Positions 60,839 through 64,000 of a DNA stretch of 64,000 bases are shown here, one piece after another (the first letter of the stretch is position 1; each line of letters begins with the position of its first letter). The position numbers and the translations under genes were made by a program. The notes beneath the pieces were generated by a model, which worked only from the letters and a program-made list of their open reading frames with translations, was not told the origin of the DNA and did no database searches. The stretch is from Corynebacterium atrinae (lineage in GTDB: Bacteria; Actinomycetota; Actinomycetes; Mycobacteriales; Mycobacteriaceae). Where the stretch lies: positions 682,001 to 746,000 of the forward strand of contig NZ_CP046977.1 of assembly GCF_030408455.1 (NCBI RefSeq), read 5' to 3'.

Positions 60839-62068
60839 CTAAATCGACGTCGGACCTTCCACGACAGTGAGTTTCAACGGCGGGGTGCGCACCCCCGACT
60901 CCTTAGCTGTTGAGTCGGCTTCCCACCCGGGTGGGACGTAGACGCAGGTTGGGTCGGAAGCTCGGTAGTCACCGGTCAGTGCGAACGCTGTCGAACGTGA
61001 ACCTCCGCAGACGGTGTGGAATCCGCACACGCTGCACTTTCCGTGCCAATTGTCGGGGTCACGGAGCTCTTTGAACACCGGTGATTCGGTGTAGATCTCT
61101 GGAAAATCGGTATCTTTGACGTTTCCGCAGTGCAGGGGGAGGAAACCGTTGGGGTAAACGTCGCCGACGTGGTCGATGAAGGCGAAACCAGAGCCCGAGT
61201 TCACTGCCATGGGGGAGCGCGGCGGACGTGGCTTCGCCGCGTGTTCGCCAAGCAGGGCGGTGGTCTGTTGGGTGAGGTTCTCGTAAAGCGGCCCGCCCGC
61301 ATACTTCGGTGCTCCGGACTCCTCGGCCTCGCGGCGTTGCAGAACCACCCGGCGGTACTGCGGGGCCTCGGTCGTTTTGATGGCGATGCGGTCCGAGATA
61401 TCAACTAGCCAGTTGAGGACGTCTTCACGCTCTTCCGGTGACAAACAATTGAGTGCTGCTCCTCGGCCAGTGGGTACGAGGAAGAAGACGTACCACATCT
61501 TCGCGCCCATCTCGATGACCTTCTTCAGTAGCGCTGGGGCCTCGTGAATGTTGTCACGCGTCAGGGTGGAGTTGATCTGCAGGCGATAGCCGGCCTCGTT
61601 GATCACCGGAGCCATCTCGATGGTCTGCTCGAAGGTGCCGGAGAATCCGCGGAACGCATCGTGGGTCTGCGCGGTGGCCCCGTCCAGTGACATGGACATG
61701 GCTTTGCCGCCAGCTTCCCGCAGTGATCGAATGCGCTCCGGGGTGAGCTTGGGGGTGACTGACGGGGAGAGCGACACGTTGAGTCCCTTGGACGTGCCGT
61801 AAGCCGTAAGTTCTTCGAGGTCTTCCCGCTCGAAAGGATCGCCACCCGTGAGCACAACCAGGGGAAGGGGCTTCTCATAAGACGACAGCGCGTCGAGTAG
61901 TCGCTTACCCTCGTCCGTCGACAGCTGATCGGGGTGTGGTTCATGCTGGGCGTCGGCTCGGCAGTGCTTGCACACCAAGCCACAGGCTCGCGTCACCTCC
62001 CAAATCACGATGAACGGCTTCGTGTTGATGTCGTGGCGGACGGTGCGGACTGCTGGGGGCCGATGCAC
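60839..62068 (-). CDS. Radical SAM/SPASM-type enzyme
   Basis: A 409-residue iron-sulfur enzyme. The [4Fe-4S]-SAM motif is C29-x3-C33-x2-C36, with GGDPFER and SMSLDGATAQTHDAFRG behind it. The C-terminal SPASM-like cluster includes HCGNV and CSVCGFHTVCGGSR. Related proteins make peptide or heme (AhbD/NirJ-like) modifications. No precursor peptide is seen in the flanking gaps. GTG 62068 is preferred over TTG 62089 because GAGGAAG precedes it by four bases. Product unknown. Confidence 0.82.
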   Translation of the reverse strand: MHRPPAVRTVRHDINTKPFIVIWEVTRACGLVCKHCRADAQHEPHPDQLSTDEGKRLLDALSSYEKPLPLVVLTGGDPFEREDLEELTAYGTSKGLNVSLSPSVTPKLTPERIRSLREAGGKAMSMSLDGATAQTHDAFRGFSGTFEQTIEMAPVINEAGYRLQINSTLTRDNIHEAPALLKKVIEMGAKMWYVFFLVPTGRGAALNCLSPEEREDVLNWLVDISDRIAIKTTEAPQYRRVVLQRREAEESGAPKYAGGPLYENLTQQTTALLGEHAAKPRPPRSPMAVNSGSGFAFIDHVGDVYPNGFLPLHCGNVKDTDFPEIYTESPVFKELRDPDNWHGKCSVCGFHTVCGGSRSTAFALTGDYRASDPTCVYVPPGWEADSTAKESGVRTPPLKLTVVEGPTSI

Positions 62069-62152
62069 GGGACTTCCTCGGGTTGCCAAGAGTGGAAAAG
62101 ATTCTGTTCCCCAGCTACTTTACCCCCGTGCCTCGAGCCCACGGCGGCGTCG

Positions 62153-62824
62153 TCAGTCAGTCAACCCTGTTTCCCGCAGGGTGATGTTGAGCCTGCCTGA
62201 CGCCAGCCCGCAGTCGGGCGGCGCAGTATGCGGATAGATCTTTGGCACGCCGTGATAAGCCAGCCGGGCTGGGCCACCGAAAACGAAGAGATCGCCGGAG
62301 GCGAGATCGATGTCGTGATAGGGCTTACTACGGTTGTTGGTGTTGCCGAAGCGAAACTTGCAGGAATCTCCGATGGAGAGGGAAATGACCGGGGCGGGGG
62401 AGCGTTCCTCCCGGTCTTGGTGCATCCCCATCTTGGCGGTGTCGGCGTAGTAATTCACCAGCGCGGTGTCTGGGGTGTAGGTGGCCCCAGCGTCGTGGTC
62501 GCCAGTGGCGGCAATGAGGGCCTGGCGGCCCAGCCGTACCATCCATTCGGGGAAGTCGAGGACTCGATGTCCGTTCACATCGACGGCGTTGCGGGTGTAT
62601 TCGTAGGGGCGCCAATGCCAGCCAAGGCACACCGTTTGTACGCTCATGTCATGCCCGCGGATCTTTGGGGAGTGGAGGGGGACCGGGCCTTGGATCCATT
62701 CGTGGAAGCGGGCGACGATCCACCGTTGTTGCTCCAAGGTGAGCCAGCCCGGCACATGGTGTGCATCCGCCGGGAGCTCGACCGCAGGAGGCCCAAGTAG
62801 GTCATCACCGAAGAGCGGCTCCAT
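62153..62824 (-). CDS. alkB: AlkB-family 2-oxoglutarate/Fe(II) DNA dealkylase
   Basis: A 223-residue dioxygenase. Iron ligands are H135, D137 (MHQDRE) and H191 (AYHGVPKI), and R211/R217 in RLNITLRETG bind 2-oxoglutarate and substrate. LVNYYADTAKMGMH is the AlkB nucleotide-lid region. AlkB reverses 1-methyladenine and 3-methylcytosine damage. The start overlaps the end of ogt by 20 bp, so sigma, ogt and alkB form one operon. Confidence 0.9.
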   Translation of the reverse strand: MEPLFGDDLLGPPAVELPADAHHVPGWLTLEQQRWIVARFHEWIQGPVPLHSPKIRGHDMSVQTVCLGWHWRPYEYTRNAVDVNGHRVLDFPEWMVRLGRQALIAATGDHDAGATYTPDTALVNYYADTAKMGMHQDREERSPAPVISLSIGDSCKFRFGNTNNRSKPYHDIDLASGDLFVFGGPARLAYHGVPKIYPHTAPPDCGLASGRLNITLRETGLTD

Positions 62825-63413
62825 GGGAGTCTCCCTTCTCGAGGTCCAGCAAGATCGATTTTGCCTCCAGTCCGCCGAGGTACCCGCCCAGGGTTCCATC
62901 GGAACGCAGCACGCGGTGGCACGGAATGATCACCGGCAGGGGATTGGTGGCGCAGGCGGTTCCCACGGCGCGAATGGCCGTCGGCTTGCCCACCAACGCT
63001 GCGACCTCTTTGTAGGACCGGGTGTTTCCGTAGGTGATGCGGGGGAGAAAGCTGTGCACCTCGCGGCGAAATCCCGCGGAGAGGGCGAAATCCAGGGGCA
63101 GATCGAAGACCTGGCGGCGACCAGAGAAGTACTCCTCTAATTCTCCGGCGACCGTGTCCAGCCGCGCGGGAGCCTCCAGCACTCGCGGACTGACCTTGGC
63201 GGCGATGGTCGTCAGGACGGCGTCGAAACCCTCGACCTCGAAGGCCACACGCACGAGGCCTTTCTCCGTCGCGGCCAACAACAGCGGGCCGAGCGGGGAA
63301 TCCACGATGCGATAAGCGACGTCGAGGTTCCCTTCCGCCGCGGCGCGTCGTCCTAGTTCAACGTGGAGTTGGTCGAGGTCCGCGCGGGAAATGGGGAAAG
63401 AGGCAAGGTTCAT
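62805..63413 (-). CDS. ogt: O6-alkylguanine-DNA alkyltransferase (MGMT)
   Basis: A 202-residue suicide repair protein with acceptor C165 in IIPCHRVLR, the helix-turn-helix stretch SYKEVAALVGKPTAIRAVG and the tail GYLGGLEAKSILLDLE. The first 35 residues are an extra N-terminal helix region. It overlaps the sigma gene stop (ATGA) and alkB start, so translation of the three is linked. It directly removes alkyl groups from guanine O6. Confidence 0.92.
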   Translation of the reverse strand: MNLASFPISRADLDQLHVELGRRAAAEGNLDVAYRIVDSPLGPLLLAATEKGLVRVAFEVEGFDAVLTTIAAKVSPRVLEAPARLDTVAGELEEYFSGRRQVFDLPLDFALSAGFRREVHSFLPRITYGNTRSYKEVAALVGKPTAIRAVGTACATNPLPVIIPCHRVLRSDGTLGGYLGGLEAKSILLDLEKGDSHGAALR

Positions 63414-63883
63414 GAGGGCTCCTCCGTCGAGTAGGTCCTGCGCAAGTTCTTGATGCCATCTGCCGACGCCCGCCGCACGGCCTCCGCCGTCCCGCCGATC
63501 AACCGGGCAGTCTCGGTGTGCGGCAGCCCGCCCAGATAGTGGTAGGCGATGGCGAGGCGCTGCCGATCTGGCAGCTGCGCCACGTCCTGCCAGATGCCCT
63601 CGTCCGCGCCGGGATTGCCCCTTGAAGAGGGATGCTCCGGCACTTCAGGAGTCGGGATGGCGCGCCGGGCACGGGTGATGTCGATGGACTTGCGCTGGGC
63701 GACTCGCACGAGCCACGCCTCCACGTTCGCGTCGCCGGGCAGTTCCGGCCACGAGCGCAAGGCGGCGAGAAAGGTCTCTGACCAGGCATCGTCGGCGTCG
63801 GCGCCGTAGCCCAGGACGGTGCGGCAAACCCGAAGGATCGTGGCCCCGTGCTGGTGCACTGCCTGCTCGAATGGACCTTTCAT
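63410..63883 (-). CDS. ECF-type RNA polymerase sigma factor
   Basis: A 157-residue sigma-70 family factor with region 2 (DADDAWSETFLAALRSWPELP...EAWLVRVAQRKSIDI) and region 4 (LPDRQRLAIAYHYLGGLPHTETARLIG...AVRRASADGIKNLRR). No anti-sigma gene is in this cluster; the operon continues into ogt and alkB. ATG 63883 is chosen: TAGGCT lies seven bases upstream. Whether it drives its own operon is unknown. Confidence 0.86.
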   Translation of the reverse strand: MKGPFEQAVHQHGATILRVCRTVLGYGADADDAWSETFLAALRSWPELPGDANVEAWLVRVAQRKSIDITRARRAIPTPEVPEHPSSRGNPGADEGIWQDVAQLPDRQRLAIAYHYLGGLPHTETARLIGGTAEAVRRASADGIKNLRRTYSTEEPS

Positions 63884-63890
63884 CTTTCGC

Positions 63891-63896
63891 AGCCTA
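63891..63896 (-). promoter_or_regulatory. -10 element for leaderless sigma-ogt-alkB operon
   Basis: On the minus strand TAGGCT lies seven bases before the sigma-factor ATG. It directly follows the stop of the upstream MGMT gene (63898), so read-through is also possible. Confidence 0.5.
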
Positions 63897-63897
63897 C

Positions 63898-64000
63898 TTA
63901 GAACAAGCGCTGCCCGGCGGGCTCTTCGAGCTCCAGCAGCCACCGCTTGCGCTCTAGTCCGCCGGCGAATCCGGTTAGGGAGCCGTCCGCACCGATGACG
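63898..64000 (-). CDS. Second MGMT-family gene, partial (C-terminus)
   Basis: The last 33 residues of a protein whose 5' part lies beyond the window. VIGADGSLTGFAGGLERKRWLLELE matches the segment that follows the PCHR active site in O6-alkylguanine-DNA alkyltransferases, and it resembles but is not identical to the tail of ogt downstream. It runs in the same direction as the sigma-ogt-alkB genes with 14 bp between its stop and the sigma ATG, so it may be part of the same operon. Confidence 0.75.
   Translation of the reverse strand, partial: VIGADGSLTGFAGGLERKRWLLELEEPAGQRLF

Follow-up and report, generated by a model that had tools for sequence, protein, structure and literature searches.

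A conserved pair of an ECF sigma factor and a DNA methyltransferase, and its probable alkylation-repair regulon, in Corynebacterium atrinae and other Actinomycetota

ECF122 is a group of ECF sigma factors described as having no anti-sigma factor and a conserved 6-O-methylguanine-DNA methyltransferase (MGMT) neighbour, with the mechanism listed as unknown and the actinobacterium Cellulomonas sp. Root930 as model organism (excerpt of PMC8999054, citing Casas-Pastor 2021). Unlike the present analysis, that excerpt gives no promoter, regulon or role of the MGMT (PMC8999054), and a literature search, whose coverage did not extend to the 2021 classification itself, returned nothing on its promoter or regulon, or on any sigma factor acted upon by an MGMT. 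The SigH/RshA pair of Corynebacterium glutamicum, an ECF sigma factor with a soluble anti-sigma factor, likewise has adjoining sigma and partner genes (excerpt of PMC3489674). In contrast, the partner in the locus described here is an MGMT (MGMT2), for which Pfam returns MGMT models only and no anti-sigma domain. Autoregulation is common in ECF sigma/anti-sigma pairs. The structures 4bhc, 4bhb and 4wx9 of Mycobacterium tuberculosis OGT have the core MGMT fold and catalytic domain in common with MGMT2 and lack its N-terminal extension. The Ada response of Escherichia coli resembles the present system in its set of MGMT, AlkB and AlkA and in a suicide methyltransferase as possible sensor (in part from an excerpt of PMC4437013). 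It uses an AraC-type activator, whereas the system described here has a dedicated sigma factor.

Four genes follow one another head to tail on the minus strand of the window, the whole 64,000-nucleotide stretch of C. atrinae DNA that was analysed (C1:682001-746000 of the genome, G000): MGMT1, an ECF sigma gene, MGMT2 (ogt) and alkB. The window holds the last 103 nt of MGMT1 (63898..64000, minus strand; Pfam DNA_binding_1, 5.7e-35). The original prediction had placed a second MGMT gene ahead of the sigma factor, and the sequence beyond 64000 bears this out, with a complete gene (C1:745898-746401, minus strand; L005:5899-6402) encoding 167 aa and the motif IIPCHRV. MGMT1 ends at 63898, 14 nt ahead of the ATG of the sigma gene (63410..63883, minus strand; 157 aa), whose product has regions 2 and 4 only (Pfam Sigma70_r2, 1.4e-12, and Sigma70_r4, 3.6e-7; 13 rows in the aligned set). 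The stop codon of sigma and the start codon of MGMT2 (62805..63413, minus strand; 202 aa) overlap as ATGA. MGMT2 has the Pfam domains Methyltransf_1N and DNA_binding_1 and the catalytic motif IIPCHRV; its N-terminal extension (residues 1-31; 63321..63413, minus strand) is the proposed sigma-contacting part, and Cys165 of PCHR (codon 62919..62921, minus strand) the proposed damage-sensing residue. The ATG of alkB (62153..62824, minus strand; 223 aa) overlaps the MGMT2 frame by 20 nt, and its product is an AlkB-family 2OG-Fe(II) dioxygenase (Pfam 2OG-FeII_Oxy_2, 1.9e-46, scored on the longer frame 62156-62899).

A TetR gene flanks the locus upstream and a radical SAM/SPASM gene downstream; the latter (window 60839-62089, minus) lies on the same strand, about 60 nt past alkB. 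Among the scanned neighbours (MGMT, AlkB, TetR, amine oxidase and radical SAM) no anti-sigma domain or gene was found. The coordinates and Pfam matches thus confirm the reading of an ECF sigma factor that has no recognisable anti-sigma factor and is joined by the ATGA and 20-nt overlaps to ogt and alkB. Two weaker MGMT-domain matches lie elsewhere in the genome. The sigma factor very probably belongs to ECF122, judged by the described features of the group, namely sigma regions 2 and 4 only, a conserved MGMT neighbour and no anti-sigma gene beside its own locus. A sigma-MGMT2 pair of this kind also occurs in Cellulomonas, with a sigma ortholog of 69% identity (L035).

The pairing was followed through genus, named actinobacterial, class, divergent and phylum sets of loci, which overlap in part. 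Thirteen of 151 genomes of the genus had a sigma match at E<=1e-12; the match in G027 (33%) is another ECF sigma factor, which leaves 12 carriers with 13 genes, and MGMT2 lies directly downstream of sigma at all 13 loci. These short loci have MGMT1 upstream in five cases and AlkB downstream in three. The named loci are the best 80 of at least 575 sigma relatives, with eight duplicate genus loci, and MGMT2 directly follows sigma in 79 of these best 80; the remaining locus (L069) is cut. The class sample (296 genomes, at most 12 candidates scored per genome) contains 37 carriers by our own count, 35 at >=167 bits and two with a split gene, and MGMT2 is next to sigma in 35 of the 36 loci other than our own (L199 is cut). 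At divergent loci, where sigma identity is 28-40%, MGMT2 directly follows in eight of eight, and it stands beside none of the 12 next-nearest ECF relatives that were fetched. In the phylum sample 25 of 306 genomes match the MGMT2 search, six of them also in the class sample, and sigma lies just upstream of MGMT2 in 22 of the 24 non-own loci; L275 is cut and G219 has no sigma. Given these counts for the genus, named (best 80 of at least 575), class and phylum sets, the pairing exceeds chance. The co-occurrence survey proposed in the original prediction finds MGMT2 constant beside this sigma clade in all four sets. The pairing is thus not a peculiarity of one strain: it is seen throughout the phylum, even where sigma identity falls to 28%.

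With MGMT2 as query, the class sample gave an ortholog at >=54% in 41 genomes, namely the 37 carriers and G335, G351, G250 and G219, and in the fetched loci of the latter four no sigma stands beside it. Weak ECF matches only (59-70 bits), located elsewhere in the genome, were found in G335, G351 and G219. The G219 locus (L228) has a MGMT1-MGMT2 row without sigma, then a frame that reads by eye like Tag, and is perhaps a natural loss of sigma. MGMT1 was considered as a constant partner and rejected, being present in 31 of the best 80 of at least 575 loci and adjoining sigma in 29. A loss of its catalytic Cys was also considered and rejected, since the motif variants ACHR and PCHQ among the 33 translated MGMT1 sequences retain Cys; L087 reads frame-shifted. 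Relatives of sigma (53-56%) occur on large actinobacterial plasmids (NZ_LR134464.1, NZ_CP110616.1 and NZ_AP024649.1), and the first of these, from Tsukamurella (L255), carries a whole five-gene module of MGMT1, sigma, MGMT2, oxygenase and AlkB. A search of phage records returned five, one of them a 69.5% match on a 6.5-kb unannotated faecal record that is assumed to be bacterial DNA. A further MGMT family, seen in one actinobacterial family, shares the N-terminal start L[DE]ALLR.TS.TY (L229, L230, L231, L237, L238 and L239), and its 4-kb loci contain no relative of sigma.

Upstream of the first gene of the module, CTCAC-N15..19-CGWCT is present in 79 of 85 non-redundant loci (93 in total), of which 48 are sigma-first and 31 MGMT1-first, and the spacer is 17 nt in 78 of the 79. 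Controls gave 2/85 on the reverse strand, none in the sigma coding region, and in shuffles an average of 0.16 with a maximum of 2. The window's own site (G000:C1:746435-746465, 435 nt past the window end) is the variant CGTTT and one of the six misses; with CGWYT and a 16-17 nt spacer the count rises to 80/85. It is the only site in its genome, where allowing as many as 2 mismatches brings up no further match. Among the 48 sigma-first matches, 43 have their first in-frame start codon 5-8 nt beyond CGWCT, a distance that suggests a leaderless module mRNA.

Scanning of whole genomes of the genus found the site in 11 of 12 carriers (not in G124) and in 12 of 139 non-carriers. The non-carrier matches look like chance because a backward control is equally frequent (12 of 151 genomes), and tblastn found none of four module proteins beside them. 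A stricter pattern in the class sample matched 17 of 37 carriers (the C. atrinae genome not being one of the 17) and 13 of 259 non-carriers; the carrier matches lie upstream of the module (10), before an SDR gene (five) or detached (two). When two mismatches were allowed, 43 of 49 chosen carriers had a match somewhere, against 10 of 49 in the backward control. By our own count, 27 of the 36 class loci have CTCAC-N17-CGWYT ahead of their first gene, and of the nine without the strict motif, six of family f17 show a near variant by eye. The strict motif is found in one of the eight divergent loci (L205), where it is placed between MGMT1 and sigma; motif-less class and divergent loci mostly show variants by eye.

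Across 120 sigma-promoter pairs, uncorrected for ancestry, the A/G choice in the -35 element went best with sigma residues 134, 31 and 145, of which 134 and 145 belong to region 4 and 31 to region 2, not 4. The W choice in the -10 element went best with residue 61 (region 2; same pairs, likewise uncorrected), and other -10 positions in these 120 pairs mostly mark clades. Judging from the motif and its placement, the sigma factor probably recognises CTCAC-N17-CGWYT and reads the promoter of its own operon; what is seen of an autoregulated promoter upstream of the sigma-MGMT2 pair is this conserved motif.

Copies of the site also occur at genes that have left the module. All five genomes with a relocated MGMT1 gene in the fetched loci have a site copy of its own there, whether the gene is divergent (L184 and L185, one genus) or about 2-3 kb off (L044, L061 = L254, and L253; own genus). 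G193 has a detached copy of the site as well, 5 nt ahead of a gene for a PF09859 oxygenase; this gene is 75% identical to one inside the L046 module. The promoter thus appears to travel with module genes, given the copies at relocated MGMT1 (5/5) and at the detached PF09859 oxygenase. Detached AlkB listings lack a site of their own in seven of eight cases, the exception being a remnant in L065, and in four of the site-less cases (L030, L046, L050 and L097) other repair genes intervene. On the same contig as L065 (G118), a second ECF site (L202:3990-4020) precedes a short remnant resembling AlkB, some 0.7 kb beyond alkB. The divergent MGMT gene of L198, which is of another type, has no site. 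In six genomes that belong to a single genus (L192-L195, L197 and L198) a site copy precedes an SDR oxidoreductase gene that follows MGMT2; the copy in L193 is one base off, and the sigma factor of these genomes has a variant site. G422 has a site outside the module, 5 nt ahead of a gene for an EamA-type transporter (L203:1168), either by chance or as a true target.

The repair genes that gather at the module were counted on the same strand downstream in the best 80 of at least 575 loci: Tag in 25, AlkB in 19, PF09859 oxygenase in 12, Ada-Zn in 12 and AlkA in seven. At least one further alkylation-repair gene lies downstream in 40 of these best 80, or in 53 when MGMT1 upstream is counted, and the 12 ECF loci that served as controls, with lengths up to 5 kb, contain none of the five types. 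The conserved pair, the accumulated repair genes and the sigma-type promoter at both the module and relocated MGMT1 lead us, with high confidence for a reading from comparative data, to regard this as a putative autoregulated alkylation-repair operon or regulon run by the ECF sigma factor. This supports the part of the original prediction in which sigma activates repair genes; induction of the regulon by damage is predicted.

A small stand-alone Ada zinc-binding protein is found inside the module in 12 of the best 80 of at least 575 loci (e.g., L050:5903-6214, Pfam 1.3e-6; by tblastn also L030, L046, L048, L067, L074, L090, L095, L097, L099, L103 and L106), and it might serve as an additional sensor or scavenge phosphotriesters. 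The Ada zinc domain as such occurs in 213 of the 296 class genomes and in 25 of the 37 carriers (own count). A general rule that the module replaces Ada was therefore rejected.

Within the pair, several features mark MGMT2 as the likely switch. The catalytic PCHR is intact in 84 of 84 MGMT2 sequences. The N-terminal extension, noted in the original prediction, is real, since the best solved match, 4bhc (5.9e-27), aligns only from MGMT2 residue 32; Ada 1sfe aligns from 28 and a few engineered fusion chains from 17-26. It is gap-free from residue 13 onward in 84/84, and the near-invariant L16 (84/84), L20 (81/84) and A24 (83/84) have a spacing that would place them on one side of a helix. Most often the MGMT2 start overlaps the sigma stop by 4 nt. 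Among the 120 proteins listed (8000 scored), nine are natural fusions that combine the two sigma regions with the catalytic domain of MGMT. Each of the nine is the sole member of its cluster; at least three of them (P0007, P0008 and P0010) appear to be frameshifted, and P0003 and P0004 have in-frame linkers of different lengths. The AlphaFold2 model of fusion P0001 (mean pLDDT 86.9) predicts the extension as helical and, at a pTM of 0.54, has no readable sigma-MGMT2 interface. Among sigma-less MGMT2 orthologs the helix is lost in G335 and G351 and kept in G250 and G219, a pattern that is suggestive at most. The constant partnership, the helix with L16/L20/A24, the invariant catalytic Cys and the fusions together make MGMT2 the likely switch from sequence comparison; the earlier suggestion that Ogt or its extension partners sigma is indirectly strengthened by the extension and the fusions.

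In the mechanism that we propose, sigma would transcribe its own operon (MGMT1-sigma-MGMT2-alkB) from the CTCAC-N17-CGWYT promoter upstream of the first gene, and translational coupling would make MGMT2 in step with sigma. MGMT2 would hold sigma inactive, probably through its N-terminal helix, until an alkyl group on the catalytic Cys caused a shape change or degradation and freed sigma, whereupon the operon would be induced. Once no lesions were left to use up MGMT2, fresh MGMT2 would shut sigma off. Comparison supports the operon, the conserved pair, the promoter that follows module genes and the repair-gene content. The putative contact and induction, with MGMT2 as an anti-sigma factor released by its own alkylation, we judge to be evenly poised between right and wrong. 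The notion that the anti-sigma factor is none other than a suicide enzyme of DNA repair, which lets go when consumed by O6-alkylguanine and so allows the cell to count lesions by its consumption, we put slightly below an even chance.

The constant pair, the coupling, the fusions and the conserved Cys would also fit if MGMT2 were an activator whose alkylated form binds and activates sigma, as methylated Ada does with E. coli RNA polymerase. We consider this unlikely: Ada's activating part is a separate N-terminal zinc domain, of which Pfam finds no counterpart in MGMT2, and a self-activating sigma factor is usually paired with a negative partner. Ada-activated transcription is described, and a reference list names work on the Ada-sigma interaction (excerpt of PMC4437013). 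Equally unlikely in our estimate is a sigma factor that is active as soon as it is synthesised and whose level is controlled by proteolysis or a different regulator; MGMT2 would then be no more than a repair enzyme transcribed along with it, and its helix would have a role in folding or coupling. This would agree with the helix being kept in two of the four sigma-less orthologs, with the lack of a readable interface in the fusion model and with alkB being a LexA target in Streptomyces venezuelae (excerpt of PMC9380542); however, the one strongly conserved element noticed upstream is the ECF-type promoter itself, and the pair is retained while other repair genes come and go. That sigma and MGMT are neighbours merely through clustering of repair genes, without regulation by sigma, is highly improbable, since gene order is fixed over the phylum, the promoter moves with MGMT1, and genus non-carrier sites do not exceed the backward control in frequency and have no module proteins alongside.

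For the genus, a zinc-binding Ada protein (PF02805) is absent from the C. atrinae genome and present in one of 151 genomes, a non-carrier; if carriers within the genus have an inducible response to alkylation, the module would be the foremost candidate for it. For ECF122, the promoter, the repair genes, the conserved helix and the fusions turn a mechanism listed as unknown into an experimentally tractable question. If the reading of MGMT2 as an anti-sigma factor released by alkylation is right, a repair enzyme would double as anti-sigma factor, which would be a second way besides Ada to sense DNA alkylation and would give an adaptive response without Ada's sensor across the Actinomycetota.
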